A stretch of DNA of 64,000 nt from contig NZ_CP019791.1 of the NCBI RefSeq assembly GCF_002007645.1, forward strand, positions 2,170,001-2,234,000, in the 5' to 3' direction. The notes beneath the pieces were generated by a model, which did no database searches, had not been told where the DNA came from, and saw only the letters and a list, made by a program, of their open reading frames with translations. The DNA comes from Anaerohalosphaera lusitana. Its GTDB lineage: Bacteria; Planctomycetota; Phycisphaerae; Sedimentisphaerales; Anaerohalosphaeraceae. A program made the translations under genes and the position numbers. Below, in pieces: positions 17,447 through 59,525 of the stretch; positions within the stretch are counted from its first letter, which is position 1, and every line of letters starts with the position of its first letter.

Positions 17447-17520
17447 GGGGTCGTAGCTCAATTGGTTAGAGCATCGGACTGTCGATCCGAAGGCTGAGGG
17501 TTCGAGTCCCTTCGACCTCG
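17447..17520 (+). tRNA. tRNA-Asp (GTC)
   Basis: The cloverleaf is complete. Acceptor GGGGTCG pairs with CGACCTC (one G-U), the D stem is GCTC/GAGC, the anticodon stem is TCGGA/TCCGA with loop CTGTCGA (anticodon GTC), and the T arm contains GGTTCGAGTCC. The discriminator base is G73, an identity element of tRNA-Asp. CCA is not encoded. An integrase gene reads toward its 3' end, so this tRNA is the probable attachment site of the mobile region that follows. Confidence 0.97.
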
Positions 17521-17528
17521 TTTTCATA

Positions 17529-17597: not shown

Positions 17598-18803
17598 TCA
17601 CTTTTGCGTCAGTCCCGAAAAGCCTTTCTGAAGCATCTTATTCATCAGCTTGCTTGCCGAGGCCAGATTTTCAGGACAAACTGCCAAATAGTATTGTCGA
17701 GTTGTGGTTATATTAGAGTGCCCCGCAAATTGCTGTACGATTTGGATTGGCAGATGTTGTGCCCAGTTAGTTATTGCAGACCTTCTTAAGTCATGTATTG
17801 AGTACTCACAAATCTTCGCTTTCTTACAGAGTGTATTGAATTTTTTTGGAAGATTGTTGATTACTTCACACTTAGAGTTCCAAGTGCCTCTATCTATCCG
17901 CTGTTTGATATGTCTCAATCTTTCTGGCGAGAGGAAAACATAAGGTGCGCATCCCGTTGACTCGAAATGGATATCTGCGAACAGTTGGGCAGTTTTCTCT
18001 GGCATAGGAATTACACGACGTTCGTGATCTTTTGGTTCCCACTCGATAGTGTGTTCCATGTGCTTTTTTGGATTGACATAAATGTATTGGTTTTCGAAAT
18101 CTATGTCATTCCAAGTCAAATTCACCAGTTCGCCTCTTCTTAAGCCGCAACAGTAAGCGGCAGAGATGAACGTCTTCCACCACAAACTGTCAGTGGTGTG
18201 CAGTAATTTACGGTAGTCGTCCATGCTTACATAATTGATTGGTTTGGAAGAAATTCTTCTCTGCTTGATTTTTGCAAAAGGGTTGTCTCCTTCTTTGAGA
18301 TAACCTCTGCGTTCAATTGCGAGATTGAAGATGCTTTTAAGAGTTCGGATGTCTTTGTTTGCTGTTGCTGTACTGATGCCCGAGGCCAGTCTTTTAGCGA
18401 TAAAAGCTTCGGCATCGCGAGCACGTATCTCAGTTAATAGGGTGTTGCCGCCTATGAACTTTTTAAAGAGTTTGAGCTTATGCATTTGCTCAACTAATGT
18501 GGCATCAGCGACCTGTCCTTTAGTAAGGATTTTATGTTCCGCGACAAAATCTTCGAACGCTATCCTCTTTGGTCTGTCCTGCTTACCGCAGTTTACCTGC
18601 TCCTGGAGCTGACGGGCAAAATTGTCAGCCTGCTTTCTCGTCTTGAAGCTTTTTGAATACCTCTTGCGGTCAGTTCCGAACCATCGAACTACCCAGTTGT
18701 GGCGTCTATTTTTGGGCCAGTCGCTTTTGGGTATTTTCCTGCCGTTTTCTGTCGGAGCAGGTTCGAGCCATCTGCGATAAATGCCAATTTTTTCTGTTGC
18801 CAT
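17598..18803 (-). CDS. int: Tyrosine recombinase (phage/ICE-type integrase)
   Basis: The 401-aa protein has an N-terminal arm/core-binding region and a C-terminal catalytic domain. Catalytic residues are visible: Arg in CGLRRGELVNLTW, His-x-x-Arg in IHDLRRSAITNW, and His plus the nucleophilic Tyr in GHSNITTTRQYYL. ATG 18803 is chosen because AAAGGAG lies 7 nt upstream; codons upstream of it are out of place. It ends 77 nt from the 3' end of tRNA-Asp, the classic position of an integrase that recombines at a tRNA gene. It should catalyse integration and, with the small DNA-binding protein next door, excision. Confidence 0.93.
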   Translation of the reverse strand: MATEKIGIYRRWLEPAPTENGRKIPKSDWPKNRRHNWVVRWFGTDRKRYSKSFKTRKQADNFARQLQEQVNCGKQDRPKRIAFEDFVAEHKILTKGQVADATLVEQMHKLKLFKKFIGGNTLLTEIRARDAEAFIAKRLASGISTATANKDIRTLKSIFNLAIERRGYLKEGDNPFAKIKQRRISSKPINYVSMDDYRKLLHTTDSLWWKTFISAAYCCGLRRGELVNLTWNDIDFENQYIYVNPKKHMEHTIEWEPKDHERRVIPMPEKTAQLFADIHFESTGCAPYVFLSPERLRHIKQRIDRGTWNSKCEVINNLPKKFNTLCKKAKICEYSIHDLRRSAITNWAQHLPIQIVQQFAGHSNITTTRQYYLAVCPENLASASKLMNKMLQKGFSGLTQK

Positions 18804-18883
18804 TTGGTAACTCCTTTCTGCAGTTACCACTGGCGACTGACAGAGGGATTGTACCAGATTCGAGGCGTCAGCGCAAGTGCTGT

Positions 18884-19135
18884 CTAGATGTTTTCCGTCT
18901 TGACGGAGAGGAAGGCCTCGAGCTCACTTTTGAGATACCATACTCGTCTGGCGTATTTGGTGGCACAAAGTTCGCCTCTGTCTCGCCAGTAATTGAGTGT
19001 CCTTCTGGCTGACTTTGGTGTGTGGCCTGTCTGGTCGAGCCGCAGGAACATTGCAGCTTCGACCGGAGTCATCAGCTCAGGGAAGACATGCGGCCTTGGG
19101 GGCCAATCGTATTCATTTTGTTCTCTTAGATCCAT
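18884..19135 (-). CDS. Excisionase-like small DNA-binding protein
   Basis: The 83-aa protein has the helix-turn-helix layout of the HTH_17/MerR-like excisionase family (MTPVEAAMFLRLD, then SARRTLNYWRDRG and the wing with RRVWYLKSELEAFL). Such proteins bend attachment-site DNA and direct an integrase toward excision. It lies directly upstream of the integrase on the same strand, and its start overlaps the end of the primase gene by 23 nt, so the three probably share a transcript. Confidence 0.75.
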   Translation of the reverse strand: MDLREQNEYDWPPRPHVFPELMTPVEAAMFLRLDQTGHTPKSARRTLNYWRDRGELCATKYARRVWYLKSELEAFLSVKTENI

Positions 19136-20171
19136 GTTTTCTGCCGGCTTTTATTCTGTAATAGAAACAGCTTTCTTTACTGCAGTATTTTTGCATGACC
19201 GGGTGGGTGCACCCGGCAAAGCCGGGGTGCTGATGTGCCCAGAATGCGATCCTTTTGATAAAGTCGGGGTCATCTATGGGTTGCCTGCTGTCTATGGTGC
19301 GTATTCGTTTGATGATCTGTTCCGGGTGCATGTTTATCCATCTGTAAAACCGTGCCAGAGCAAGATATGTCTGGTGCCGGATTCCGTCTGGCAGGGTGGT
19401 GCTCTGGATGTTTTCAATGCAGGGAGGGATTCGCCAGCCCTGTTTAAAGTCAGAATTGTCCTGCGTAGTGGCCGTGGTTTTGCAAGCTGCTTTTGCAACA
19501 GCCCTGATGGCTTTTCGATACCACAGACCGGCTGTGTTGCTGTATTTGGCGGTTACAAAGCTGTCTTCGGATCTTGGGTGTTCGGCCAGTTTTGCGATCT
19601 GGTCTGCACTGAGATGCAGCAGCTCCTTGTGGAGAAGGGGGATTTTATATAGCCCGCTTTTACTGTTGATGGAGTTTGGGATTCGCCAGAGCCGCCTGTG
19701 GGTGTAGACGGTCCTGTCAATGGTTTCGATGCCGTAGCTGCAGGCTTTAAGGGCCATCTTGTTATAGAGCTCCATGATGTATCTGGAAGGGAAGGCATCG
19801 AACACTTCGGGAGGTATGGTAACGTGAAATCCTTTGCTGCCGCTGAAGTAGATTTCGAGCATGTCGGTGCCGATTTCGAGTCTGTCTGTTGTCAGCTCGC
19901 AGAGCTTGAGAGTGTCGGACCTGGCTTTTTCCAGGTCATCAGGCGAGTCGATATCGAAGAAGACCGGAGCGATGAAAGCAGAGTTAAGATCATCTTTTTC
20001 GAAGAGCTGGACCGTGGTGAATATGTTCGTGTTGCCGTACTTTTTACGCCAGTTGTTGATGGCTTCAAGGTTGTCCCTGCCGGCCAGTACGCCGCGGACC
20101 ATCTTGCCACCGGGCAAAAGGGCGGCAAGTTCGATCCAGCGAAAACATCTTTTTTGAAGGAAGTCATTCAT
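19113..20171 (-). CDS. Archaeo-eukaryotic primase: PriS-like core with PriL-like FeS C-terminus
   Basis: The 352-aa protein has the AEP polymerase motifs: acidic pair FFDIDSP (D73, D75), SGSKGFHVTIP (Lys113, His116) and RRLWRIPNS followed by SGLYKIPLL. The C-terminal part starts with PPC (Cys251), then has Cys321, Cys330 and Cys335 in GFAGC and KYCSKESC. The PPC...R...LA.F...G/N pattern and four Cys resemble the iron-sulphur C-terminal domain of the archaeal/eukaryotic primase large subunit. In those enzymes PriS and PriL are separate or rarely fused. It would make primers for element replication. The downstream overlap with the excisionase-like gene ties it to the integration module. The iron-sulphur assignment is inferred from Cys spacing only. 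Confidence 0.82.
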   Translation of the reverse strand: MNDFLQKRCFRWIELAALLPGGKMVRGVLAGRDNLEAINNWRKKYGNTNIFTTVQLFEKDDLNSAFIAPVFFDIDSPDDLEKARSDTLKLCELTTDRLEIGTDMLEIYFSGSKGFHVTIPPEVFDAFPSRYIMELYNKMALKACSYGIETIDRTVYTHRRLWRIPNSINSKSGLYKIPLLHKELLHLSADQIAKLAEHPRSEDSFVTAKYSNTAGLWYRKAIRAVAKAACKTTATTQDNSDFKQGWRIPPCIENIQSTTLPDGIRHQTYLALARFYRWINMHPEQIIKRIRTIDSRQPIDDPDFIKRIAFWAHQHPGFAGCTHPVMQKYCSKESCFYYRIKAGRKHGSKRTK

Positions 20172-20771: not shown

Positions 20772-21980
20772 ACTGGACAACATCTTATCAAAAAACTCGG
20801 CCAATGGGAAGGATATCGTGTTGGAACTGTTGGGCCTGCTAAGAAAGGCCCTGAATTCTGGGTCGAATTGATACCTGAATATGGCCATGGAATTTGCGAC
20901 GGCTGCGGCCAGGAATGCAGCAGCGTTCACGAGACCGTCCAGCGTTGGATCCGCGATCTGCCGGTCTTCGACAAGACTACCCACCTGCTCGTTCACCGAA
21001 GGCGTCTGCTGTGCCCCAGATGCGGGCCGAAGCTTGAACGAATCTCCTGGCTGGACCGTTACAGCCGCCACACTACCCGGCTGGTCGAATCGGTCGCCAG
21101 GCTGTGTGATGTGATGAGCATAAAGCATGTGGCCGAGTATTTTTCGCTGTCCTGGTCGACCGTCAAGGACATCCACAAGCGGCATCTCAAGAAGAAGCTG
21201 GGCCCTGTCGACCTGTCGAATGTGGAGCTGCTGGCGATGGATGAATTCGCCATTCAAAAGGGCCACAGATATGCAACGGTTATCATCGATCCGACCTGCA
21301 AGAAAGTGCTCTGGGTGGGCCGAGGGCGTTCGAGAGCCTCTATCAGGCCATTCTTCGAAATGCTCGGCGACCGCTGCAAAGACATCAAAGCAGTAGCAAT
21401 GGACATGAACGCCAGCTTCGAGCAGGAGGTTCAGCTGCATTGTCCGCAGGCAGAAATAGTTTATGATCTGTTCCATGTCGTGGCCAAGTACGGCCGTGAA
21501 GTGATCGATCGGGTCAGGGTCGATCAGGCCAATCGACTACGAGACGACAAGCCCGCCCGCAGGGTGATCAAGGGCTCGCGCTGGCTGCTGCTTCGCAATC
21601 GTGAGAACATCGAAAAGCCTGAGGACCTGGTTCGCCTCGATGAGCTGTTGGCCGCCAACGAGTCGCTGATGACGACCTACGTGATGAAGGATGATCTCAA
21701 GCTGCTGTGGAATCTGAGCGATCGCAAGGCCGCCGAATCGTGCTGGGGTCAGTGGCTCGATCGAGCCATGCAAAGCGGGATTGAGCCGCTGATGAAGTTT
21801 GCCAAAAGGCTGAGCAAATACGCCGCCGGAATCATCGCACACAGCAGATGGCCGCTGCATACGTCACTGCTGGAGGGGATCAATAACAAGATCAAAACCA
21901 TCAAGCGACAGGCATACGGCTATCGAGACGATGAATATTTCTTCCTGAGAATAAGAGCAGCATTCCCCGGTATTCCGTGA
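20769..21980 (+). CDS. tnp: ISL3-family transposase
   Basis: The 403-aa DDE transposase has an N-terminal zinc-ribbon (CDGCGQEC, CPRCGPK), a helix-turn-helix (VAEYFSLSWSTVKDIHK) and the catalytic domain with Asp in LLAMDEFAIQKG, Asp in KAVAMDMNASF and Glu in LLEGINNKIKTIKRQAYGYRD. It starts at TTG 20769, preceded by AAAGGAG at 7 nt. Its last codons run into the right inverted repeat, as in many ISL3 elements. It is intact and probably active. Confidence 0.95.
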   Translation: MTGQHLIKKLGQWEGYRVGTVGPAKKGPEFWVELIPEYGHGICDGCGQECSSVHETVQRWIRDLPVFDKTTHLLVHRRRLLCPRCGPKLERISWLDRYSRHTTRLVESVARLCDVMSIKHVAEYFSLSWSTVKDIHKRHLKKKLGPVDLSNVELLAMDEFAIQKGHRYATVIIDPTCKKVLWVGRGRSRASIRPFFEMLGDRCKDIKAVAMDMNASFEQEVQLHCPQAEIVYDLFHVVAKYGREVIDRVRVDQANRLRDDKPARRVIKGSRWLLLRNRENIEKPEDLVRLDELLAANESLMTTYVMKDDLKLLWNLSDRKAAESCWGQWLDRAMQSGIEPLMKFAKRLSKYAAGIIAHSRWPLHTSLLEGINNKIKTIKRQAYGYRDDEYFFLRIRAAFPGIP

Positions 21981-23993: not shown

Positions 23994-24530
23994 TTATGGG
24001 TTTACGCTCTGATAGAATTTTTTCACGCTGGGTGAAAGCAGCTCATGTATCCGGCAGTCCTCAAACCTGCAGCTCGAGTCGAAATACATTCTTGCGGCAT
24101 CTGTATCGCCCATCTGATAGTGTATAGCTCCGGCAAGGATCTTGCTGGTACATTTGTCCGAGTGGGACATCTTTGCGGAATGGATCTGTGATGCAGCGAG
24201 CCTGAGGCATTTTTCCCAGTTGAGGTTTTTGTAGGCGGCGATGATTTCTTCGGTCCTGTAATCGTTTTTGTTGGGAGCGGATCGTTTTGTTACAGTCGGC
24301 ACCTTTGCTGTTCTTTTTGCTGTCGATCGACGGATGGGTCTTGAATACTGCTTTGTGTCGCTGGTACTCGCCGATGAACTGCTGCTTGAAGGCTCGTAAG
24401 AATCCAGAAGGGGCTTGGCAATGACAAGGGCCATGTATGCACCTACAATCTCGGATCCTGTACAGCCTGCAAGCGAAGGCAGGATTGAAAGCAGTATGCT
24501 AAAGACCGCTGTTTTGACTTTTGTTGACAT
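23994..24530 (-). CDS. Lipoprotein, hypothetical
   Basis: The 178-aa product has a lipoprotein signal peptide with lipobox LAGC near residue 22. A Ser-rich linker (about residues 47-58) follows and then a basic low-complexity stretch. The last 90 residues contain a helix pair resembling a tetratricopeptide-like unit (EIIAAYKNLNWEKCLRLAASQI, GAIHYQMGDTDAARMYF). It is the last gene of the chaperone-ATPase operon and overlaps the end of the J-like membrane gene by 32 nt. It may act with that membrane protein on the outside face of the inner membrane. Confidence 0.7.
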   Translation of the reverse strand: MSTKVKTAVFSILLSILPSLAGCTGSEIVGAYMALVIAKPLLDSYEPSSSSSSASTSDTKQYSRPIRRSTAKRTAKVPTVTKRSAPNKNDYRTEEIIAAYKNLNWEKCLRLAASQIHSAKMSHSDKCTSKILAGAIHYQMGDTDAARMYFDSSCRFEDCRIHELLSPSVKKFYQSVNP

Positions 24531-25368
24531 TGTTATGTCCCCCTGAAATGGTTACGGTTTCGTTTTGGAAGTTGGCCCTGATGATCGTTTCTGAGTGACG
24601 ACTTAACGTTATATGTTTATCGAGGGTTTGACCGGTGTCGGTGCGAAGTTCAAGAACATGCTCGCCCTCTCTCAGGTAGAAAGGTTCGGCCTGCCCGCTG
24701 ACGCCGAGTTCTTCGCCGTCTACTGAGACATGGCACCAGGGTACGGCCAGGACCCGTACCTGGGCGGTTGGGACTTTCATTGCGAGCATCAAGACAACAG
24801 AACCAACACCGGCAAGCGAGACAGAGATCAGTGATATACAGGCGAGGACATTGCAAACTGCGCTGTATCTTATCGAGTTTGAAATGCCCGCAAAGAGTCT
24901 GGCCAGCTGCTGAGAGATAAAAACGGTCGGGACCCAGATGAATTTGAATAACATGTGCAGTATAAAGCCGGCAGTTTGACAGAAGCTGACAAACTGACCC
25001 CATCCGCTGCTCGGGGTGGACCGGTGAGGGTAGTATGATTGTGTCGGGGTTGGCTGGACATTGCCGGAGGAGAAGGGTTTGGGCTGAGGCGGTGTGGAAT
25101 TAGCGAAGTTTGGCGGCTGCTGAGATGCGCCGGAGGTGCTGTTCTGTGAGGCTGCAGTTTGTCTTATTGTATCGATGGCCCGGGCGATCTGGCTGAGTTT
25201 GTCGATGGTTTCTTCTCTTTGCTCGGGTGTTGTGCCGGGCATGTTGAGCCTGTTTTGCAGTTTCCGGCGTAGTTTTTTATATGCATCTTCGGCGATCAGA
25301 AGATCGTTAGTGTTGATCTCCAGCAGGGATTTTGCCTGTTCGACCGTCATGTGATACGCCGGGTTCAT
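24499..25368 (-). CDS. Membrane protein with degenerate J-like N-terminus and PEGA-like C-terminus
   Basis: The 289-aa protein has three parts. Residues 7-70 form helices spaced like a J-domain (AKSLLEI, then AEDAYKKLRRKL and later KLSQIARAIDTI), but the diagnostic His-Pro-Asp between helices is missing (RLNMPG instead). A Pro/Ser/Gln-rich linker (70-120) leads to two membrane segments (about 131-151 and 171-197). The tail (205-270) looks like a PEGA beta unit (VSVDGEELGVSGQAEPFYLREGEHVLEL). It starts by ATGA overlap with the preceding gene. With DnaK and GrpE-like genes in the same operon, a membrane-bound pseudo-J partner is an attractive reading, but this is inference. Confidence 0.6.
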   Translation of the reverse strand: MNPAYHMTVEQAKSLLEINTNDLLIAEDAYKKLRRKLQNRLNMPGTTPEQREETIDKLSQIARAIDTIRQTAASQNSTSGASQQPPNFANSTPPQPKPFSSGNVQPTPTQSYYPHRSTPSSGWGQFVSFCQTAGFILHMLFKFIWVPTVFISQQLARLFAGISNSIRYSAVCNVLACISLISVSLAGVGSVVLMLAMKVPTAQVRVLAVPWCHVSVDGEELGVSGQAEPFYLREGEHVLELRTDTGQTLDKHITLSRHSETIIRANFQNETVTISGGHNNVNKSQNSGL

Positions 25369-25832
25369 GATATGATCTTAAAATTATCCGGTACCTTTTT
25401 ATTTCGGCACAGGTGCCTGTATATGTTCTTTATGGCTGCCGCCCTGGAGATGTCATCGCCGCGGTTGGGCAGCAGTTGATTGCATACCTCGGCGAATTGA
25501 GCGTATGAGCATTCCACGCCCATCGCCTTGACAATGTGGTAGATTTCGGTATGCCGGTTACTGAGTTCTTTTTTGGCATCCTTGGAATCTTCCGATGTCG
25601 TTGTTTTTTTGTTTTTGTAAAAGACAACGGGCCTTCCTTCTATGTCCACACATGTTTCTTTGATCGCTTGGCACTTTTGCACAAGTTCGTTATCGTAGTA
25701 TGGCCTGTTGTTTGCAGGATCGCGAAAGGGCCTTGGGAATACGCCTTGATCAAGCAATTCGTAAAATCGGGCTCTTGAAAACCCCAGCAGTTTTGCTGTC
25801 TTTGAAACCGAATATTTTTCTTTTTCGCTCAT
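25365..25832 (-). CDS. MerR/HTH_17-like regulatory protein
   Basis: The 155-aa protein starts at ATG 25832 (AGGA just upstream). Residues 1-50 have the HTH_17 pattern: SVSKTAKLLGFSRARFYELLDQGVFP, then a wing with NNRPYYDNELVQ. The C-terminal part is helical (IVKAMGVECSYAQFAEVCNQLL) and not recognised. It overlaps the J-like gene by 4 nt. It could control the operon or the copy number of the element. Confidence 0.7.
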   Translation of the reverse strand: MSEKEKYSVSKTAKLLGFSRARFYELLDQGVFPRPFRDPANNRPYYDNELVQKCQAIKETCVDIEGRPVVFYKNKKTTTSEDSKDAKKELSNRHTEIYHIVKAMGVECSYAQFAEVCNQLLPNRGDDISRAAAIKNIYRHLCRNKKVPDNFKIIS

Positions 25833-25845
25833 TTTGATCCTCACG

Positions 25846-26811
25846 CTAGACGGTATTTTTCAAATGGATGCATCCTTTGTCCGTGATAGAAAGGCGGCCG
25901 TGCGTTTTTTTGATAAGACCTGTTTTCAGCAGGAAAGGCTCGCTCCTTTCGGACAGATCTTCGATATCAAGTCTTGTCGAAGATGCGATTTCGCTGATAG
26001 AGGCACTTTCTTTCAGCTCCAGTATCTTGAGCAGGCTGCGATCGGTTTCATCGAGTCCGAGGCTGTCGATCTTGAGCTCTCTGAGTGTTTGAGCGACATC
26101 AAAAGCAGTGATCAGGTCCCTGTCTTCGGCCCGGACCTTTTCGACGGCAGTATTGGCGATCCGATCTATTGCGATCGAGGCGGAGTTTTTGCTGCGATCG
26201 GCGATTTGCCTGGTAAGTTGGGGATGTTCGAGTTTCAAGCCATTTCTGTGGAAATAGTCATTTATGATTTCTGCAAGCGTGTTTGCCTGGTAATGATCAA
26301 ACTGCAAAGATGTGCAAAGGTTTTGCTTTAGCCTGTCGATGATGTTATGCTCGTCGGTGGCTGTTAGAATCAACGTAAAAGGTTCGACTGAGAGCGAATA
26401 GGATCTGGCGTCTGGGACGTTAGGCGATTGAATAAAAGCCTGCGAAAGGGCGGTTGAAAGCATTAGCTGGAGAGGCTCTTTGAGCTTCTCTGCGTTGTCG
26501 ATGAGAAGCGTTGACCGATCGTGGTGGTCACGGCAGAGCATGAATCTGTACAGGTCACCGGTTTCTATACTATTTGCCGCGGCAAGATAGAGATGATGGT
26601 TGCCGAGGGAGTTGTGATACGCCCTTGCGCAGAACTTTTTGCCGGTTCCACGGGGCCCGCAGATCAGAATGCCCGTGCTCGAAGGTGACCGGCTGTCGGG
26701 GATGGAACTCAACTGCTGCAGTGCAGAGACGGCCCCTGGTCTCCCCGATACATCCGAAAGTGTGGGCCAGGGCTGTTTCTGTTTCTGTTTTGGAGGCTGA
26801 TTAGCTGTCAT
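25846..26811 (-). CDS. RuvB-like AAA+ protein with altered nucleotide-site residues
   Basis: The 321-aa protein matches RuvB in outline. A P-loop (GPRGTGKK), Walker B-like strand (TLLIDNAEKL), sensor region (TLILTATDEHN) and a C-terminal winged-helix with GLDETDRSLLKIL and KTGLIKKTHGRLSITDKG follow the RuvB order. But the P-loop ends GKK instead of GK(S/T), and Walker B has D-N where RuvB has D-E. ATP hydrolysis should therefore be weak or absent. ATG 26811 is chosen (GAGGA 6 nt upstream). It overlaps the vWA gene by 11 nt. RuvB normally drives Holliday-junction branch migration; no RuvA is seen here. Confidence 0.72.
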   Translation of the reverse strand: MTANQPPKQKQKQPWPTLSDVSGRPGAVSALQQLSSIPDSRSPSSTGILICGPRGTGKKFCARAYHNSLGNHHLYLAAANSIETGDLYRFMLCRDHHDRSTLLIDNAEKLKEPLQLMLSTALSQAFIQSPNVPDARSYSLSVEPFTLILTATDEHNIIDRLKQNLCTSLQFDHYQANTLAEIINDYFHRNGLKLEHPQLTRQIADRSKNSASIAIDRIANTAVEKVRAEDRDLITAFDVAQTLRELKIDSLGLDETDRSLLKILELKESASISEIASSTRLDIEDLSERSEPFLLKTGLIKKTHGRLSITDKGCIHLKNTV

Positions 26812-27418
26812 TTTCAATCCTCAGTCCCGCTGCAAGGTTTTCATAATGTCTTATTAGTGTCTCAGAGTCGTCAATGAAACGATAGTGGATGTAACCGTCG
26901 GGATCGGTGGTTGCGATATCTTTAAGGAGCTGTTCATCCACATCACGCGGCTGGCCGCCGATGCCGATGGTGTCGATCACTACGCCGCGAGATTTGAGTG
27001 ACTCGGCGATCTTCATGTGTTTTGAACTCATCGAGATGTGACCGTCGGTCAATATTATCAAACTTACCTTGCATCCGTGCTTGCGATAGTGGTCGGCATA
27101 GTAATTTGCGGCTTCAAGGCCCGCACTGCGTGTGCCGCCGCGAGGACGAAGCGACTTAACCGCACTGCGGATCGCATCGATCCGGCAAACCGGTACGGGT
27201 TCGCAGAAAACACGTTCTTTATTATTGAAGCCAATCCCCACGAACAGATCATCCGGGTTGATGGCAGTACGCGTTTGGCAGAACGCCAGAATGCCGTCCT
27301 GTGCGGATTCCTGGCGTGTGCTGCCATTGCGGTCGAGTGTGCCAGAGCTTCCTGAATTATCAACCGAACCCAAGAACACTTTGGGTCTCGTTGATGGTAA
27401 AACGGTGTGTGATGTCAT
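26801..27418 (-). CDS. von Willebrand factor A domain protein
   Basis: The 205-aa protein is essentially one vWA domain. Its metal-ion-dependent adhesion site is visible: D-x-S-x-S in VDNSGSSG, Thr in RGGTRSAGL and Asp in IILTDGHIS. Ribosome site AGGAG lies 8 nt before ATG. In bacteria intracellular vWA proteins often pair with MoxR/AAA+ ATPases and act as adaptors. Here it sits between DnaK (27 nt upstream) and the RuvB-like ATPase (11-nt overlap), so it may recruit client complexes to one or the other. Confidence 0.82.
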   Translation of the reverse strand: MTSHTVLPSTRPKVFLGSVDNSGSSGTLDRNGSTRQESAQDGILAFCQTRTAINPDDLFVGIGFNNKERVFCEPVPVCRIDAIRSAVKSLRPRGGTRSAGLEAANYYADHYRKHGCKVSLIILTDGHISMSSKHMKIAESLKSRGVVIDTIGIGGQPRDVDEQLLKDIATTDPDGYIHYRFIDDSETLIRHYENLAAGLRIENDS

Positions 27419-27445
27419 CTTTAAATCTCCTAAAATAGTTACAAG

Positions 27446-28984
27446 TTATGATGCTGGCTTAGACAGACTTGAAAAACCATCCCTGGTGCAAGTGCCAAGC
27501 TGCAATTCGATGTCCACGGGCTTATTGAGAAGGGTGTCAACGGCAGTGATTTCAACCAGGCCCTCGTCTGACATACTGACGGTGACGTTTATGCGGTTTG
27601 CGTTCTTCTGCTCGGTTTCGACAGGCTGAACGCTGAGCTGGGCCGACTTCAAAGGCGTGTGATTCTCGCTGAGATCGTTCGCTCCGCCGTCATAGAGCTT
27701 CACATTGACCACTGAAGCACTGCGGTGACTGGGGGTGAACTTAAAGGATTTTGAATACGGCAGTACTGAGCCTGAGGGAATCAATACGGAATTGTATTCA
27801 CGCTGGTCATCGCCCTTCATGGCGGCGATACACAGGTCAGTAGGGCAAATATTGGTTACGGCAAGCTGACTGGGTAAAAGCGTCTTACCGGCAACCTCAA
27901 GAGGTGTATGGTCGTCACCGAATTTCTTTGCCGCATAGATCGCAGCTCCCATGGCAACGACTTTGTCCATCTCGACATCGCGCCGAGGTTCCTGGGCAAA
28001 GATTTTGCGGATGATGTCGGGAACAAAGAAATTGTTGCTAGAGCCGCCTGCGAGAAGCACCATATCGATCTGATCCGGTGAGAGATTTGCCTCATCGAGA
28101 GCCTCGCGACAGTATTTTTCTATCCGCTCGATGATCGGCTTTGCCAGTTCTGTGAGCTTGTCACGGCTGAGACCGACCTTGCAGATCTTTTCGCGGTTGT
28201 CTACTGCAATGTTGGTCTCCTCTGACATTGACAGGGTTTCCTTTGCATCACGGCAGCGATCCTTGAGTTCATAAGCTATCTGAAGGTTGCTTTCAAGGTC
28301 GATGGGGCAGCCCTGCTTTTGTGCCTGGTCAACGGTGTATGACAAGACAGCGTCGTCAATGTCTTCTCCACCGGTGTCCCTGTCGCCTGAAATAGAGAGC
28401 ACACTGAACTTGCCTGTCCCATCGAAATCGATGATCGAGATGTCAAAAGTTCCGCCGCCGAAATCGAACACGGCAGTCTTACAAGGACTGTCACTTTTGG
28501 GATCATGAGCCAGCTTTGCAGCCACCGGTTCCGGGGCAAGCTTAATCCCGGCAAAGCCGGCCCTCTCAGCAGCCCACTTTACGGCCCTTTTTGCTCGTTC
28601 AGGGTACTTGGCCGGTACGGTTATTACAACATCGCTGACGGATTCGCCAAGGTAGTCCTCTGCGCAAGACTTTAAATATTCAAGGATGGCGGCTGCAATC
28701 TGCTCCGGCGTGTAGTCCGAAAGTACAGGCAGGGAATTGCCGTCGGAATCGACTTTGCCCATGTGCCGCTTCGATGAATCAACAAAGTTTTCGGGATCAA
28801 ACTGCCGTTCGTTAAGAGCAGCCCGGCCGACGATCAGTTCATCGCCTTTGAGATAGGCACATGAACGTGTCAAAAAATCGCCAACATTGTTGGGGATGAT
28901 CTTGCTTTTTCCTTTTTCGATAATGGAAACCAGAGAATTCGTGGTGCCAAGATCGATTCCTATGGCTTTTGTTTCTGAGTTCAT
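27446..28984 (-). CDS. dnaK: Hsp70/DnaK chaperone, short form
   Basis: The 512-aa protein has all ATPase landmarks: phosphate-1 (GIDLGTTNSLVSI), phosphate-2 (VFDFGGGTFDISI) and the adenosine motif (VLLAGGSSNNFFVP). The substrate-binding beta domain is present (KSFKFTPSHRSASVVNVKLYDGG). The alpha-helical lid of housekeeping DnaK (about 610-640 aa) is missing. It would bind and release peptides or protein complexes but with faster exchange. It lies 16 nt downstream of the GrpE-like gene. This is probably an element-specific Hsp70 and not the cellular DnaK. Confidence 0.93.
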   Translation of the reverse strand: MNSETKAIGIDLGTTNSLVSIIEKGKSKIIPNNVGDFLTRSCAYLKGDELIVGRAALNERQFDPENFVDSSKRHMGKVDSDGNSLPVLSDYTPEQIAAAILEYLKSCAEDYLGESVSDVVITVPAKYPERAKRAVKWAAERAGFAGIKLAPEPVAAKLAHDPKSDSPCKTAVFDFGGGTFDISIIDFDGTGKFSVLSISGDRDTGGEDIDDAVLSYTVDQAQKQGCPIDLESNLQIAYELKDRCRDAKETLSMSEETNIAVDNREKICKVGLSRDKLTELAKPIIERIEKYCREALDEANLSPDQIDMVLLAGGSSNNFFVPDIIRKIFAQEPRRDVEMDKVVAMGAAIYAAKKFGDDHTPLEVAGKTLLPSQLAVTNICPTDLCIAAMKGDDQREYNSVLIPSGSVLPYSKSFKFTPSHRSASVVNVKLYDGGANDLSENHTPLKSAQLSVQPVETEQKNANRINVTVSMSDEGLVEITAVDTLLNKPVDIELQLGTCTRDGFSSLSKPAS

Positions 28985-29000
28985 TATTTAACCCTTTCTG

Positions 29001-29588
29001 TTAAACATCGCTGGAGTTATAGCGAAAAACTGCGGCCTCCGCCGGCCGAAGTTTTTTGTCCTTGTAGATCAAACCGGCTTTGTAAACCTCTGCGATTTTG
29101 CGGTGAAGATCTTGGCGGTCAGTGTCAACGGCTGCAACTGCAACGTGGAGGTCCTGGTCAAATTCGCTGCCCTGTTCGGGGATGATCAGATCAAGGTGAA
29201 CCCTCTTTTCGAGCTTTTCGAGAAACGTCTCCAGGTAAACCGAGATTCGCCTGGCTGATTCGGCGTCTGTCTCAACAAGGCCCTCGTTTACTTTCAAAAG
29301 ATTCATGGTCAGTGATGCTACCTGCACGAACAAAGGCTTGAGGCTTGACTCAACGATATACTCTTCAATCAATCTGCGAATCTGAGCCATTTCCTGTGCA
29401 AGTACCTTGTCGTTGGCCTCGAGCAGAGACAGCTTGTGGTCAAGCTGAGCCAGTTTGGATTCGATGGGCTTGATTTTCTGTGAAAAATCGTCCCCCTTGT
29501 CTTCACTGTCGAGCCTCACTGCGAGCTTTAGAACATCTTCTTCTGTGGCACTTTCCAGGAACTGCTTTAAAAGCTTGTTAATTCTCAT
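29001..29588 (-). CDS. GrpE-like nucleotide exchange factor
   Basis: The 195-aa protein begins with an amphipathic coiled coil (about 35-75, KLAQLDHKLSLLEANDKVLAQEM) and ends with a GrpE-type beta head: LIIPEQGSEFDQDLHVAVAAV followed by YKDKKLRPAEAAVF. The FD..H.AV and LRPA..V positions are the conserved features of GrpE. It starts after AAGGAG and directly precedes DnaK, matching the usual grpE-dnaK order. It is divergent enough to be a dedicated partner of the short DnaK. Confidence 0.8.
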   Translation of the reverse strand: MRINKLLKQFLESATEEDVLKLAVRLDSEDKGDDFSQKIKPIESKLAQLDHKLSLLEANDKVLAQEMAQIRRLIEEYIVESSLKPLFVQVASLTMNLLKVNEGLVETDAESARRISVYLETFLEKLEKRVHLDLIIPEQGSEFDQDLHVAVAAVDTDRQDLHRKIAEVYKAGLIYKDKKLRPAEAAVFRYNSSDV

Positions 29589-29700
29589 TTCTATCTCCTT
29601 GTAATTAGATATAAGGCTTTTACTATTATTGAAACAGATTCTGGAAGCGATTAAAATGGAACTTGGAGGTGAAAGTAGGTATCGTCTGGGACTTGTGGGA

Positions 29701-31773
29701 TTATCGCTTTATATAGTCTGCAACGAGCGTGCATCTTAGTTTCTGCCTCAGTTTTTTCCATTCGGGCCGCTTTTTAAGCAGGGCCAGGAATTGCCTTCTA
29801 AATCTTGTGTCCCTGCATACGAGGATAAAGCTGGTGTCTGCAGTATTGACAGATGCAAGGTAATCCAGAAAATGCCGCAGTTCGTTCTCGGCACGTGAGA
29901 TGCCGATATTGATAAACACCCTGTGCCGGCTTTGGATGTTGGTTGCTGCGATATCTATCCTGAGAGATTTTGATATCTTGACTTCATAGCCGAGATGCCA
30001 GATAGCCTTATCGAAATCGCAGCCGACCGCGTATGCGGCCATCTCGTGCTCGGGACCGCCGTTGGTCAACGGACGATGCTTGTGGCCGATAAGCTTTTTA
30101 CCCTTTGCGGTGACGATCAGAACGCTGAGCATGCCGCCGGCAAGGCCCGTGGAATATTTAAACTCGCGTGCAAACCCATTGTCTGTCAGGTGCTTTTTGG
30201 TCCTCACTCCCTGTGCAGCATTAAGGCCCGCCTTTCGATATAATGCGGTTACCGAAAGGTTTGGCTGGTTACAGACTGCTTTGAGCATGTCCGTTGCCGG
30301 CTGAGGAATTTGACCGGTGCCGGCAGAGCCGGATGATTGAGTACCGTTGGCCGGGCCGACCGCAGGTTTTATGTGAACATGCTGAAGGAATTTTTGTAAA
30401 GACTTTTTCCGCTGAGTCTCGCTGAGTATGTTTTGACAGTGAAAGGGCGGGTACTTAAAAAGGATTGGAAGGTCAAAATGCCTTGGATTGTACAAAAGCG
30501 CCTCATTTTGAGGCATGGTTCTGAGGTAATCCAGCTGCTCATCGTTGATATTCAAAATGTTTTTAAGCTTATAGGGCGATTCGCCTCTGCTGGCTGTGAC
30601 AGCGATAAAGCCTGCGTTCTGGATGATCGGCTGTGAGGTGTTGTCCAGGCTGTGCGGTATCACGATTGTTCCCTGGCCGGCGGACCGGCTCATGGTCATA
30701 ATGTCGCCGACAGGGCCTATGCCTCCGGCAGCATTCTTATCCGCCTGCATCTGAACGCATGGTGTGGCGTCATCGAGCACGAATAGTGCTGGGATTTGTG
30801 AAAGACTCTTTCGACCGAAAAACTGAACGCAGCTGTACCGCCAGTACATCAGGTAGATTGATAAAAAAGCAAGCACCTGAGGATCGATGCCCTCAAGTTC
30901 GAGGATCGCCAGGCCGGGTGTGCTGAAAAGTATCCTGAGCATATCGGAAGAAGAATAGTTCCACATTTCTGCGCCCAGGTTGTCCTCGATGGCCTTTAAA
31001 GAGGTAAGGCAGCTTTCTCTGAGCTGCTCGCGGCGGTAGTTGTATTTATATTTTTCACCATTCCTCTGTGAAACAAATTCGATGATCTGACTCAGCGTAG
31101 GGTATGCACCCTTGGGCCGGTGGTGCACTATTTGATGGAGCTTTTCGTTGAGAAAATTCTGCGCAGCGAATTTATTGAAACTAAGAGCAATTACTCTGCA
31201 GAGCATGTTGATCATCTGCTTGTGGTATCCATCCTGCCATGGCTGCATTATCGAGACGGCCAGGTCGTCGGCTGTAAACGTCTGGGTCAGAGGTGATATC
31301 TCAGGCACGCATGCCAGGTGGCGAAGCTCTTTTTTGCGAACGATAACGACCACTCTGTAACGGTAAAGCAGATCGGGTTTGGTGAGCAGGTGTTTTAATA
31401 CGGTTGTCTTGCCGCTTCCGGTCGGTCCGCTTATGATGCCGTTTCTGCAAAGCTGATCCAGATCGATTCCGGCGGTTATGTCCGTGGATGTCTTGCCGAG
31501 CTGGATAAAGGATGAAAAGGCCGTGGGCGGGTTGCTGTGCGGATAGTTGCCGATGAACGGATCATGAGAAAGTTTGAGTATGGCGCTTATCTGATCCATG
31601 TTCATTTTATACAGCGCCTGGATGTGTTCATCTGCGGTGTCCGTCAACAGCAGTGAGGCGAGCCGGGCCAGCTGAGGATTGTTTTTGACAATGTTTTTGA
31701 TCTGCTGATTGCTGAGCTGGGCCAGGATCTGCTTTTGGCTGTATCGGTTTTTGCTTTCTTTTTCGCTGGTCAT
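29701..31773 (-). CDS. HerA/FtsK-like ATPase with wHTH and degenerate nuclease-like C-terminus
   Basis: The 690-aa protein has a P-loop (ISGPTGSGKTTVLKHLL) near residue 120 and a Walker B (ALFVLDDATP) near 325-335. The ATPase spans about 80-440. A winged-helix region (VTALYRKAGLNAAQGVRTKKHL) follows, then a C-terminal fold starting at GGPEHEMAAYAV. That fold keeps Asp (RIDIAATN) but has VFINIGIS where an active PD-(D/E)xK enzyme would have ExK. The ATPase at 57441 has the same plan with intact residues. HerA/VirD4-like motors pump DNA or proteins through ring hexamers. ATG 31773 follows AAGG. It is the first large gene of the operon. Confidence 0.78.
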   Translation of the reverse strand: MTSEKESKNRYSQKQILAQLSNQQIKNIVKNNPQLARLASLLLTDTADEHIQALYKMNMDQISAILKLSHDPFIGNYPHSNPPTAFSSFIQLGKTSTDITAGIDLDQLCRNGIISGPTGSGKTTVLKHLLTKPDLLYRYRVVVIVRKKELRHLACVPEISPLTQTFTADDLAVSIMQPWQDGYHKQMINMLCRVIALSFNKFAAQNFLNEKLHQIVHHRPKGAYPTLSQIIEFVSQRNGEKYKYNYRREQLRESCLTSLKAIEDNLGAEMWNYSSSDMLRILFSTPGLAILELEGIDPQVLAFLSIYLMYWRYSCVQFFGRKSLSQIPALFVLDDATPCVQMQADKNAAGGIGPVGDIMTMSRSAGQGTIVIPHSLDNTSQPIIQNAGFIAVTASRGESPYKLKNILNINDEQLDYLRTMPQNEALLYNPRHFDLPILFKYPPFHCQNILSETQRKKSLQKFLQHVHIKPAVGPANGTQSSGSAGTGQIPQPATDMLKAVCNQPNLSVTALYRKAGLNAAQGVRTKKHLTDNGFAREFKYSTGLAGGMLSVLIVTAKGKKLIGHKHRPLTNGGPEHEMAAYAVGCDFDKAIWHLGYEVKISKSLRIDIAATNIQSRHRVFINIGISRAENELRHFLDYLASVNTADTSFILVCRDTRFRRQFLALLKKRPEWKKLRQKLRCTLVADYIKR

Positions 31774-31775
31774 GG

Positions 31776-32177
31776 TCAAGCCTTAAACAAGCTGTTGAAA
31801 AATCGTACGATTGGATTGTTTCTCTTGGCGGCGTGTTCTGGACACAGCGGGATACGCTCCTCGTTTTCTTCTGTCAACGCAGCATCCTGCATGCACAGGA
31901 TTCGGCCGCAATCATGGCAGCTTACCGTCTGGGAAGCAGTGAAAAGGCCCTCGCACTCGGAGCACTCTCGTACATCTTCGGGAGATTCAGGCTGTATGCC
32001 TCCGTCAAGTGGTGGGAAAGTGACCCTGTCTTTGTAGGTCCTGCAAAGGCCCTGTGCGTCAGTGTGAGTGATTTCGTATACGAGGAAGTAGACTTCCTTG
32101 CCCGAAGGCAGAATATGTCGGCTGTAATCAACCAGCTCCTTACCGACTATATTAATGTTGAGAGGATTGTTGCTCAT
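31776..32177 (-). CDS. Hypothetical protein with treble-clef-like zinc motif
   Basis: The 133-aa protein starts at ATG 32177. The N-terminal part is beta-rich and unassigned. Residues about 70-115 have Cys pairs (CSECEGLF, CHDCGRILC) and a later CPEH, the spacing of a small zinc-binding treble clef or FYVE/RING-like finger. The stop lies 2 nt before the HerA-like start, so the genes are coupled. Zinc fingers of this type are also found in the E2-RING protein of the right-hand module. Confidence 0.6.
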   Translation of the reverse strand: MSNNPLNINIVGKELVDYSRHILPSGKEVYFLVYEITHTDAQGLCRTYKDRVTFPPLDGGIQPESPEDVRECSECEGLFTASQTVSCHDCGRILCMQDAALTEENEERIPLCPEHAAKRNNPIVRFFNSLFKA

Positions 32178-32181
32178 GTTA

Positions 32182-32358
32182 TCACCATGGCTGGGACAGG
32201 TAATGGTTATATATCCAGATCGCCGCACGGTAAAACGTCAGGCCTATCAGCCAGCAGATAAGAAGTGACGTAAAGACAGCAGCGACCCATATCGGAAGCT
32301 TGGCAAGCGTCAATACAAACTTGCACAGCTTTGCTGCAAAACTTGTTTCCCTTGGCAT
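32182..32358 (-). CDS. Small single-pass membrane protein (58 aa)
   Basis: This small gene has an excellent ribosome site (GGAAGGA, about 6 nt before ATG 32358) and ends TGG TGA 4 nt before the next start. The product is basic at both ends with a strong hydrophobic helix (about residues 22-48, WVAAVFTSLLICWLIGLTF). Position and coupling suggest it is a membrane anchor or gasket for the HerA-like ATPase complex. It has no recognised family. Confidence 0.6.
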   Translation of the reverse strand: MPRETSFAAKLCKFVLTLAKLPIWVAAVFTSLLICWLIGLTFYRAAIWIYNHYLSQPW

Positions 32359-32576
32359 TTTGATTCCTTCCCATTAAAAGCTTGCATAAAGCATTTTACC
32401 AAGTGAACATTCTGCTTTGGATGGGAAATGCTGGTAAAGCAGGGGGTGGGGAATAATCTGTTCAGGTGCCAGGGTGTTGAATCGCCGGTTCATCAATAGC
32501 AGCGATAAGTGTGATTCTGGCAGTGCTTGCGCATGGAAGGGGCAGGTTTATTCACTTTCGGCGGGGCCTGGATGAT

Positions 32577-33206
32577 CTACTGGGGAGTTGAATTTTTGCG
32601 GAAAAGGAGCCCGTCATAGATGGCTGTGAGGCGGTCAATGTCTGGTACGGACCTCAGAGTTATCGAACCTCTGCATGTTCCGAGGGTGCTGGTGAGCAGG
32701 TTGTTGCCGCCTTGCTGGCTGATAGAGATGATTACGGAATTGAGGCCCATAAGACCAGAGACAAAGCCAGTTCTAATTGAAACCATTTGGATGCCGCTGT
32801 TGGGTATCATATCTATCGTACGGTGAAGTATCCCTTTTGACGCGAAAGTTGTCACTTCAGTTACCATATAAAAGCGGTTACGCCAGCGAAGGAAAATAGC
32901 TGCTGCCAGGGTCAGAAAACCCACAATAAATGCTATGAAAATCACTTTCTGGAGGTCTGCAGGTTGGTGGAACAGCAACATGTTCAGAATTATTGAACCG
33001 AGGACCAAATAATAAAACCCCGCCGCAACCCATCTTAATCCTAAATCTCGCAGTGTAGGTCTGCAAGCGTACAAAATGACCTCGTCGTCACGCAGGAACT
33101 TCTTGAAGCGTTTAGGGATCATCCAGCGGTAGGCCTGCTTGTGCGTGGAGGATATTACATCATTGCTATACTTGTTGGTCTCACTCTTAGAAATGGTTTT
33201 TTGCAT
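32577..33206 (-). CDS. Bacterial PH-domain (bPH2/DUF304) membrane protein
   Basis: The 209-aa protein has two membrane helices (about 57-79 and 87-107), then a bPH2/DUF304 domain typical of YdbT-like proteins (YMVTEVTTFASKGILHRTIDMIPNSGIQMVSI). Ribosome site AGGAGA precedes the ATG. It is the first gene of the left minus-strand operon, separated from the 58-aa gene by 218 nt with no visible gene. Its role is unknown; bPH2 proteins are usually structural membrane components. Confidence 0.78.
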   Translation of the reverse strand: MQKTISKSETNKYSNDVISSTHKQAYRWMIPKRFKKFLRDDEVILYACRPTLRDLGLRWVAAGFYYLVLGSIILNMLLFHQPADLQKVIFIAFIVGFLTLAAAIFLRWRNRFYMVTEVTTFASKGILHRTIDMIPNSGIQMVSIRTGFVSGLMGLNSVIISISQQGGNNLLTSTLGTCRGSITLRSVPDIDRLTAIYDGLLFRKNSTPQ

Positions 33207-33479: not shown

Positions 33480-38112
<4,633 letters not shown>

Positions 38113-39027: not shown

Positions 39028-39029
39028 TC

Positions 39030-57440: not shown

Positions 57441-59525
57441 ATGCGGCTAAAGCCGATACTGGGTAAAAAGATAGACTCGCTCTGGAAGGCCTACCTGCTC
57501 TCGGAGGGCAGGGACGAGAAGGCGGATATACTGCAGACTCTTGAAATCCTCGCCGAAAAACACCTCGGCTCATCGATCGACAACTCATCGGATCCTTTCC
57601 CGCCGCCTGATAAGGGTTCGGTTGCCGCCGGTGATATAGAGCTTGGGACAATCCGGTATGCCGGCCGCGATATATCACCTTTGAAACTCAAATCAGACAG
57701 ACTCAAAGAGCACCTTCTTGTCGCCGGCAGAAGCGGGTCGGGAAAGACCAACCTGACGTTCGTTCTTGTCGACAGTGTCATTCGAAGCGGTATAAAGGTA
57801 CTCGCACTTGACTGGAAGAGGGGATATCGCGATCTAAAGCAGGTGCATCCGGATTTAAAGGTCTATACGGTCGGGCGTGATATTTCTCCTTTCAGGTTCA
57901 ATCCGCTGATACCGCCGCCGGGCTGTGAGCCCAATATATGGATCAAGCTTATCGTGGATGTGATCGCGGATGCATACCTGGGCGGTGAGGGAGTGATAAG
58001 TCTTCTTGTCAGCGGACTTGAGCATCTTTACAATGAGTTCGGAGTCTATGAAGGGATCGGTCCTAGGTGGCCCACGATAAAGGATCTGCTCGGCTGGCTC
58101 AAAAATGCAAAACTCAAGGGAAGGGCAGCTCAGTGGCAGGCGTCCGCTCAGCGTATCCTGATGGCGATGACCTATGGTGAGTTCGGCAGGGTAGTCGAGA
58201 CCCAGGACAACAGCGATATTTTAAAACTGCTCGATGAAAACTGTGTGCTGGAGATGGACGGGCTCTCTGCCAATACCGATAAGGTGATGTTCTCAGAGGC
58301 CCTGGCGCTCTATGTTTATCGCCACAGACTCGCCCAGGGTCCAAGGGATAAGCTGACCAATCTCCTGGTCATAGAGGAGGCACACAACCTCCTGCACGCC
58401 AAACAGGCAGGATCCAGAGAGTCGGTCCTGGAAAACTCAATCAGGATGGTGCGCCAATACGGACTTGGATATGTGTTCGTCGATCAGTCGGCGTCGCTTT
58501 TGAGCAAGGTGGCGTTTGCAAACTCTTATGCAACGATTGCACTGAGCCAGAAACTGAGATCAGACATCACCTCACTGACCAGCGCAATGAATCTCGACGA
58601 CGATCAAAAATCTGCCCTTTCCCAGCTTGAAAGGGGCGAAGCGATAGTAAAGATCGCAGACTGCTCACCCAGGCCGTTCAGGGTCAAGCTGCCTCTTTTC
58701 GAAATAACGGAAGGTGAGATTACCGATGCGATGCTCAGATCCGACCGCGACGGCGATTCCGCCCGGTCCGGTCAAACCGGGGGCAATTCTGCCGGGTCCG
58801 GGGCTGTTTCGGACGGTCCGGAAAAGGAAAAGGAAGTTGATAAAATATTGAAGATACTCGACGAGATAACAGCTTCCCACCCACCCGCGGACCAGGAAAA
58901 AGATAAACAGTCGCATTCAACGGAACAATCCCACCCACCCTCCATGATAATGACAAGAGAGATGATAAGGTTTCTGGACGATATAGTGCAAAGGCCGTTG
59001 AGCTCGACTGTAAAACGATATAATCGCCTGAGGTTTTCAAGGCGCAGGGGAAACGCCATCAAAAAAGAGCTTACAGCAGCCGGGATCATAGACGCCGTCT
59101 CCGTTCCCACCCGCACCGGTCAGGTGGTCCTTTTACAGATATCCGACAACGCCCGGGGCCTGTGCATCCGGGAGGGGATATTCCCGCCTCGCAGGCGAGA
59201 GAGCATCGAACATCTTTTCTGGAAGGAAAAAGCAAAAGAGTATTTTGCCGACCTTGGCTATGACGTCTCGCTCGAACACTCGGTCACAGACAACGGAGTC
59301 GTCGACCTTGTCGCCAAAAATCACCGCGAAAAAATAGCAGTCGAGGTCGAGACCGGCAAATCCGACATAGCCGCCAACATCAAAAAGCTCAGTGATACTG
59401 ATTTTGATAGACTGGTGCTCGTAGCGACGAATGCGTCGGCGGTCGATAAGATTGACAGGGCGATTGCCGGCTGTGATAACCCGCGGGTGCCGATTGAACG
59501 TCTTTGCTGGCTCGATATTTCATGA
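57441..59525 (+). CDS. HerA-like ATPase fused to a PD-(D/E)xK nuclease-like domain
   Basis: The 694-aa protein has Walker A (GRSGSGKTNLTFV, 96-108), a large ATPase core up to about 420 with Walker B (LLVIEEAHNLL near 305-315), a Ser/Gly/Glu linker, a winged-helix and a C-terminal fold (about 585-690) with RESIEHLFWKEKAKEYFADLGYDV, NGVVDLVAKN and VEVETGKSD. The Asp and E-V-E-T-G-K fit a PD-(D/E)xK-type nuclease site. The paralogue at 29701 lacks these residues. DNA-pumping ATPase plus nuclease is typical of conjugative or defence machines. It overlaps the convergent gene at 59389 by 137 nt. Confidence 0.82.
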   Translation: MRLKPILGKKIDSLWKAYLLSEGRDEKADILQTLEILAEKHLGSSIDNSSDPFPPPDKGSVAAGDIELGTIRYAGRDISPLKLKSDRLKEHLLVAGRSGSGKTNLTFVLVDSVIRSGIKVLALDWKRGYRDLKQVHPDLKVYTVGRDISPFRFNPLIPPPGCEPNIWIKLIVDVIADAYLGGEGVISLLVSGLEHLYNEFGVYEGIGPRWPTIKDLLGWLKNAKLKGRAAQWQASAQRILMAMTYGEFGRVVETQDNSDILKLLDENCVLEMDGLSANTDKVMFSEALALYVYRHRLAQGPRDKLTNLLVIEEAHNLLHAKQAGSRESVLENSIRMVRQYGLGYVFVDQSASLLSKVAFANSYATIALSQKLRSDITSLTSAMNLDDDQKSALSQLERGEAIVKIADCSPRPFRVKLPLFEITEGEITDAMLRSDRDGDSARSGQTGGNSAGSGAVSDGPEKEKEVDKILKILDEITASHPPADQEKDKQSHSTEQSHPPSMIMTREMIRFLDDIVQRPLSSTVKRYNRLRFSRRRGNAIKKELTAAGIIDAVSVPTRTGQVVLLQISDNARGLCIREGIFPPRRRESIEHLFWKEKAKEYFADLGYDVSLEHSVTDNGVVDLVAKNHREKIAVEVETGKSDIAANIKKLSDTDFDRLVLVATNASAVDKIDRAIAGCDNPRVPIERLCWLDIS

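Follow-up and report, generated by a model that had tools for sequence, protein, structure and literature searches.

The 64,000-nt window analyzed here (Anaerohalosphaera lusitana, contig NZ_CP019791.1, positions 2,170,001 to 2,234,000) contains ten open reading frames (ORFs) on the minus strand, spanning window positions 33206-23994, in which a HerA-type ATPase is accompanied by a GrpE-like protein, an Hsp70 and a von Willebrand factor A (vWA) protein. An original prediction, made from the sequence alone, had described such a ten-gene run, borne on a mobile element and with most genes overlapping or less than 30 nt apart. The run was present as described, and seven of its nine junctions were overlapping or ≤30 nt in the ORF list; the exceptions were those between the bPH and zinc-finger genes (348 nt) and between HerA and GrpE (112 nt).

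The core of the run comprises a FYVE-like zinc-finger protein (31776..32228; Pfam E 1.6e-4, under the cut-off), which is core to the HerA subgroup and precedes HerA in relatives; an ATPase of the HerA/FtsK superfamily (29701..31779; Pfam DUF87/HerA E 1.1e-4, just under the cut-off; alignment, structure model, Foldseek); a GrpE-like nucleotide exchange factor (29001..29588; Pfam GrpE 4e-10, alignment); an Hsp70 that has no lid but keeps its ATPase residues (27446..28984; Pfam HSP70 2.2e-90, alignments); and a TerY-like vWA protein with an intact metal ion-dependent adhesion site (MIDAS; 26801..27418; Pfam VWA 3.5e-8, alignment). The first gene of the run encodes a bPH_2 membrane protein (32577..33206; Pfam bPH_2 3.1e-5) that showed no conservation in relatives. 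Beyond the vWA gene lie a RuvB-like AAA+ protein whose Walker A, Walker B and arginine-finger motifs are degenerate (25846..26817; Pfam RuvB_C 1.7e-12, RuvB_N 1.4e-5) and its partner, a MerR/AlpA-like helix-turn-helix (HTH) protein (25365..25844), both forming an insertion special to this locus. They are followed by a membrane-anchored J-like protein without the HPD motif, with a C-terminal beta domain that is PEGA-like by appearance (24499..25368; alignment, structure model), and by a lipoprotein with an LAGC lipobox (23994..24530), homologues of which occur in L037, L069 and L157 (L and G numbers denote loci and genomes). No convincing Pfam match was found for the MerR-like, J-like and lipoprotein ORFs. 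In a local hidden Markov model scan, the bPH and RuvB-like genes were found in none of 49 other loci and the MerR-like gene in one (L143); these three genes are outside the conserved core.

The catalytic residues of the chaperone are preserved in the element Hsp70s compared. Among 36 aligned element Hsp70s, K70, E171, D194 and T199 (E. coli numbering) were kept in every sequence, and D8 was kept in all 34 filled rows, two rows being gapped at that position. All 36 ended within 18 residues of the beta part of the substrate-binding domain, as compared with 140 residues in the host DnaK, and the linker residue aligned to DnaK L392 (the last leucine) was mostly Q, R or H. In the window vWA the MIDAS residues are D20, S22, S24, T96 and D125, and the D-S-S..T..D pattern was invariant in 11 of 11 vWA proteins. 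The GrpE-like proteins were weakly conserved, with two invariant columns among 10 sequences. Another lidless Hsp70 (L003; 516 aa) is encoded elsewhere in the host chromosome, at position 4007144 of the genome, beside a membrane coiled-coil gene.

The HerA-type protein of the window carries the motifs GPTGSGKT and LDDAT, and both Walker A and [DE]DAT were kept in the first five HerA proteins aligned. The structure model (predicted local distance difference test, 78.6; predicted template modeling score, 0.63) and a C-terminal alignment place a winged helix and a PD-(D/E)XK-like fold without E-x-K residues at the C-terminus, whereas stand-alone versions of this restriction endonuclease-like domain elsewhere read D..ExE. 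The top Foldseek matches of the model were DndH-C (first), VirB4 (fifth) and HerA complexes (SIR2-HerA, DUF4297-HerA). The window ATPase is thus predicted to be of the HerA type, and it is assumed to form a hexamer. In two draft genomes, HerA is split into overlapping frames (L037, 9806-12072; L071, 1196-3584), by sequencing error, decay or programmed frameshift.

A search of class genomes with the HerA protein matched 8 of 198 at E 1e-6, and in several Phycisphaerae contigs the neighborhoods of the best of these matches showed the order zinc finger-HerA-GrpE-Hsp70-vWA beside an excisionase-like gene and an integrase. One locus (L069) carries the whole order integrase-excisionase-primase-lipoprotein-J-like-vWA-Hsp70-GrpE-HerA-zinc finger. 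A census of 397 genomes of the class with a vWA profile (E 1e-28) gave 47 places, spread over 33 genomes; because the profile was built from the vWA proteins of loci already known, the census favors loci of the known type. Of these places 45 were examined (two short fragments, G461:C84 and G443:C33, were left out), and counts upstream of vWA rest on 43, since L155 and L177 have no upstream sequence. Hsp70 was found upstream of vWA in 38 places (30 genomes), a PP2C-FHA-kinase set in three and neither in two (L171 and the decayed fragment L111). GrpE preceded Hsp70 in 33 of the 38 places; among the five others, L147, L148 and L154 lie at a contig edge, and L167 and L169 have broken or short Hsp70 ORFs. 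Three of the 33 GrpE-positive loci end at a contig edge, and in 23 of the other 30 a HerA-type gene precedes GrpE. The HerA-type gene follows vWA in L109, and a membrane protein of approximately 800 aa takes its place after vWA in L166, L172, L174 and L175. In L163 and L165, which have GrpE-Hsp70-vWA, no motor gene was found. The neighborhood of the module in L163 is defense-like, with ABC-3C/Cap4-like and DUF3732 genes at 11351-14873.

The module remained constant while the type of recombinase varied. In 31 of 43 loci, a tyrosine recombinase lay no more than 6 kb downstream of vWA (seven on the opposite strand, and some with low profile scores). The remaining 12 comprised two loci at a contig edge, three with a serine recombinase recognized by eye (L145, L167 and L109), the window, where the integrase lies 8.6 kb from vWA, and six with none. 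An archaeo-eukaryotic primase (AEP) adjoins the module in L034, L069, L108 and L148; in the window a few genes separate the two. In a sample of the phylum, 39 of 392 genomes matched at E 1e-20, mostly weakly; this sample provided L108, a locus from another family, with the order GrpE-Hsp70-vWA-primase-kinase-vWA. A motif scan of genome contigs with the HerA alignment, the one test for the module outside Planctomycetota, gave five loci, four titled Phycisphaerae or Phycisphaerales and the fifth Candidatus Kuenenia. The genome of a contig so titled (L036/G387) is placed in the order of the host, and it is probably a mislabeled metagenome-assembled genome. No syntenic locus was recognized among the viral contigs and phages searched. 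On plasmids, vWA had no match, HerA had one weak Streptomyces match (49% coverage) without recognized synteny, and Hsp70 and the RuvB-like protein matched records annotated DnaK or RuvB, or unannotated, among which no syntenic locus was recognized.

These distributions bear on an alternative in which unrelated genes came together by chance on a mobile element. The RuvB-like, MerR-like and bPH genes, which are confined or almost confined to this locus, would fit such an origin. The original prediction had named an order found in no other genome as the sign of it; the core order instead recurs in 30 of 397 class genomes and in G075, from another family of the phylum. Chance assembly of the core genes is ruled out by this synteny, and for the cluster as a whole its likelihood is very small.

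In three loci the GrpE-Hsp70 pair is replaced by PP2C, FHA and kinase genes (L071, by Pfam; L159 and L170, by local profiles), and all three kinases kept the HRD motif. In the vWA tree these loci and two further rows without Hsp70 fell on one side, with support (87/89) that is not strong. In the ATPase tree, L071 stood inside the HerA group of the window and L159 and L170 stood beside L176, so that the kinase loci need two changes, forced also by well-supported branches; in this tree the L071 row is only 38% filled and some branches were flagged as long. The ATPase tree suggests that the swap of GrpE-Hsp70 for the kinase set occurred at least two times. We interpret Hsp70/GrpE and kinase/PP2C as two interchangeable control cassettes on one type of motor.

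The membrane-associated genes are less constant. The J-like and lipoprotein genes adjoin vWA in L037, L069 and L157, and in the window they lie two genes further on; L167-L169 have the J-like gene without the lipoprotein, and small transmembrane (TM) proteins follow vWA in many loci. The HPD motif was absent from all seven J-like proteins aligned (the window and six relatives). Matches to PF00226 (DnaJ) were weak in three of the six relatives scanned (3.6e-4 to 5.8e-3, all under the curated cut-off), and the window protein had none at E 0.1; in the host genome, the PF00226 search matched only one DnaJ, located elsewhere. Since no J-domain entry was among the best 50 Foldseek matches listed for the model, the J reading comes from the sequence only. 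The J-like membrane protein of the original prediction is present but has no HPD. The complete small Hsp70 team of that prediction was not supported: the J-like protein lacks HPD and occurs in few loci, and the Hsp70s are lidless (36/36) with an altered linker. A classical DnaK-DnaJ-GrpE machine is ruled out by the missing HPD, the missing lid and the changed linker. The adjacency of these genes and of the small TM proteins to vWA would suit a module for envelope or protein quality control, in which Hsp70, GrpE, vWA, the J-like protein and the lipoprotein service a membrane assembly and HerA is a neighbor with a task of its own. We consider this explanation quite improbable, because the J-like and lipoprotein genes are missing in most loci whereas HerA is usual, and because the kinase set occupies the same slot beside HerA.

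The operon was found to be element-borne, as originally predicted. A tRNA-Asp gene lies at 17447-17520, and its 3' half forms the left attachment site (17476..17525, plus strand; tRNA call and pattern search), a 50-bp repeat that recurs exactly at positions 2299362-2299411 and 2331326-2331375 of the host genome. The tRNA-end pattern occurs three times in the 4.25-Mb genome, and the first two repeats share 62 bp. The 50-bp repeats delimit a 111.9-kb insertion that carries the operon. Adjoining the tRNA, on the minus strand, are a tyrosine integrase (17598..18830; Phage_integrase 5.7e-22) and an excisionase-like HTH_17 protein (18884..19135; HTH_17 8.7e-5), which is kept beside the integrase in relatives; an AEP with DxD and SGSKGFH motifs follows on the same strand (19113..20171; DNA_primase_S 3.8e-4, under the cut-off). 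A second, 32-kb element lies in tandem (2299362-2331375 of the genome; L182-L184), with its own integrase at the middle repeat.

We tentatively favor, with confidence somewhat short of even, a reading in which the cluster is the backbone module of a family of integrative elements and Hsp70/GrpE and vWA gate a HerA DNA translocase during propagation. The HerA/FtsK-superfamily ATPase would be the hexameric motor driving the movement of element DNA (following excision, during replication, segregation or transfer), and the TerY-like vWA protein would be a metal-dependent adaptor. The lidless Hsp70 and GrpE may form a conformational switch, powered by ATP, by which the motor complex is loaded, released or taken apart. 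An Hsp70 that has its ATPase residues and an exchange factor, but neither a lid nor an HPD-type J partner, fits a switch whose contact with a folded partner is brief. Pairing a kinase with a phosphatase is the other usual way of building a switch, and in some elements the PP2C/FHA/kinase set would do the equivalent job via vWA. The constant parts are the motor, the MIDAS adaptor, the nearby recombinase and the chaperone or kinase pair; Hsp70/GrpE (or kinase/PP2C) may set the state of vWA, and assembly of HerA on DNA would thereby be allowed or forbidden. Small membrane proteins may tether the complex, namely the J-like/beta-domain protein and the lipoprotein here and small TM proteins elsewhere. 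The analysis establishes the gene order and its conservation, the predicted HerA fold, the intact ATPase and MIDAS residues, the link to recombinases and the replacement by kinase sets; physical contact between the parts, the direction in which control runs, the DNA substrate and a role in propagation over one in defense are inferred.

The main rival to propagation is defense against phages or plasmids, in which a HerA translocase with a nuclease-like domain is held off by Hsp70/GrpE or the TerY-P kinase set while vWA senses invasion. We regard it as a substantial though doubtful possibility. Membrane DNA transfer, plasmid segregation and defense, the roles put forward in the original prediction, all stay candidates, and propagation or transfer and defense are two readings that the present evidence does not separate. 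The HerA fold is near those of DndH-C, SIR2-HerA and DUF4297-HerA, weak PADLOC mad8 matches were obtained (7.3e-7 in the window; 2e-11 in L069), and a type I-C CRISPR-Cas system lies on the same element. TerY-P-like modules are described as able to serve as stand-alone defense and as companions of restriction systems (PMC11090510), and Hsp70, GrpE and J proteins as present in GAP1-N2 conflict systems (PMC7159879). On the other hand, the C-terminal domain of the window HerA lacks the E-x-K residues, and no convincing PADLOC match was obtained among the ten operon proteins, GrpE, Hsp70 and vWA included. The fixed position beside a recombinase and a primase resembles backbone rather than shuffled cargo. 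Propagation is favored over defense because of this position and because one subgroup of loci, that with the membrane protein of approximately 800 aa, has Replic_Relax-like proteins (L172, 4.9e-4; L166, 9.3e-3) and a weak TraG-D_C match in that membrane protein (L175, E 0.0031).

Several observations weigh against gated propagation. No recombinase was in reach in the six loci L162, L166, L171, L172, L174 and L175. Searches of the host genome for the VirD4-type coupling protein PF02534 (positive in 5 of 14 controls) and the relaxase PF03432 (positive in one of 14; other relaxase families and type IV secretion system parts were not searched) detected neither; PF13814 gave no match, but it was silent in every control too. 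The Foldseek ranking, with DndH-C first and VirB4 fifth, does not separate conjugation from defense, and the lidless Hsp70s and HPD-less J-like proteins weigh against a classical chaperone cycle. HerA, TerY-P and vWA are all known from defense systems; given this and the CRISPR-Cas I-C genes on the same element, the module may be cargo.

Gated propagation could be extended to a class of integrative elements not described before, whose HerA pump, gated by interchangeable chaperone/vWA or kinase/phosphatase/vWA cassettes, spreads the element without a classical type IV secretion system; this we consider rather unlikely.

Chaperones are known to act on the replication and transposition complexes of mobile DNA, remodeling them as factors borrowed from the host. 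In the present lineage of elements, a dedicated Hsp70/GrpE pair seems to belong to the element itself and to be coupled to a DNA motor. In evolution, this pair appears exchangeable for a kinase and a phosphatase that act next to the same type of vWA adaptor. The role of TerY-like vWA proteins becomes testable, as they would receive a signal, conformational or by phosphorylation, and relay it to an ATPase. If true, the proposal would explain the spread of Planctomycetota elements without the conjugation genes tested; otherwise, the module may be a new class of defense.

The RuvB-like AAA+ protein that had been predicted has RuvB_C and RuvB_N domains, but not the motifs of a working motor: it reads GKK and DN and has no arginine-finger-like R, whereas three relatives have GKT or GKS, DE and R. 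A working branch-migration motor is ruled out by these degenerate motifs. Two of the three intact relatives lie in the host genome outside the element. Pairs of an intact RuvB-like AAA+ and a MerR-like HTH protein recur outside the module (L008, L009/L010 and L006/L012-L013) and are followed by a tyrosine recombinase in L009/L010 and L006/L013. The pair is possibly a separate recombination or gene-cassette system.

Elsewhere, the 111.9-kb element also encodes ThiF and JAB proteins, RadC, a second HerA-type ATPase and a Cdc6-like AAA+. The complete type I-C CRISPR-Cas genes occupy 33480-42465 (Cas3, Cas5c, Cas8c, Cas7, Cas4 and Cas1 by NCBIfam; Cas2 was not searched), and the CRISPR array has 19 repeats and 18 complete spacers, whose matches to the sequences compared in this analysis spanned 13-14 nt only. 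The ThiF and JAB proteins lie with a 362-aa zinc-rich protein at 49884-52349 (compare L072); ThiF (68% identity) and the zinc-rich protein (38%) recur in G601, adjoining a second HerA-type ATPase. In the window, the second HerA-type ATPase (57441..59525, plus strand; scan, tree) has no chaperone set of its own and lies with a Cdc6/Orc-like AAA+ at 57441-62163 (compare L072 and L073), the latter being 50% identical to its counterpart in G387. With the Cdc6/Orc-like AAA+ toward one end and the AEP toward the other, archaeal-looking replication genes occur in a bacterial element. An ISL3-family transposase (20769-21980), on the opposite strand between the end of the primase and the chaperone operon, splits integrase and primase from the module when compared with L069.

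A full-text literature search found no published description of this gene set, and an earlier mention in a 2012 paper on Ter systems is possible. As in the TerY-P triad of TerY-like vWA, PP2C and Ser/Thr kinase (PMC11090510), the window vWA has a MIDAS. No PP2C or kinase was found by Pfam among the ten window proteins, both being present in L071, L159 and L170; a lidless Hsp70 occupies the kinase/phosphatase slot in 38 places, the window among them, and 33 of these also have GrpE. In Type III-A CoCoNuTs, according to the same paper, TerY vWA genes frame HerA/FtsK-type ATPases, and the window likewise has vWA near such an ATPase; however, no CoCoNuT genes were seen at the module, which is linked to recombinases. 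The GTPase-centric GAP1-N2 systems (PMC7159879) similarly place Hsp70, GrpE, a J-domain protein and PEGA domains near the membrane, and in a sister theme the parts are kinase, PP2C and vWA. Although Hsp70 and GrpE are shared, the ten proteins were not assigned to GAP1-N2: none had a GTPase or GAP1 Pfam match (the rest of the element was partly scanned), the ATPase partner is HerA-like, and the module is on integrative elements. Membership in MoxR-vWA ternary systems, which join a MoxR AAA+ to vWA and VMAP or another third component, was rejected, the sole AAA+ of the operon being RuvB-like, degenerate and absent from relatives, as was membership in MADS, of which mad1-mad8 and a methyltransferase are expected and mad8, mad3 and mad1 matched only weakly among the ten proteins. 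HerA-effector defense systems (SIR2-HerA, DUF4297-HerA and HerA-NurA) share the HerA ATPase fold, by predicted structure, but no SIR2, DUF4297 or NurA partner was seen and the restriction endonuclease-like domain lacks E-x-K in the window's subgroup. The DnaK-DnaJ-GrpE machine shares an Hsp70 with intact ATPase residues and GrpE, and differs in the lid, the linker at DnaK L392 and the HPD motif. Integrative and conjugative elements, from which the lack of PF02534 and PF03432 matches in the genome sets this element apart, share the integrase at a tRNA site, the excisionase-like gene, the primase and a VirB4-like ATPase fold. The module, whose gene set recurs in approximately 30 related species, mostly beside a recombinase, is most likely the backbone of an element family.

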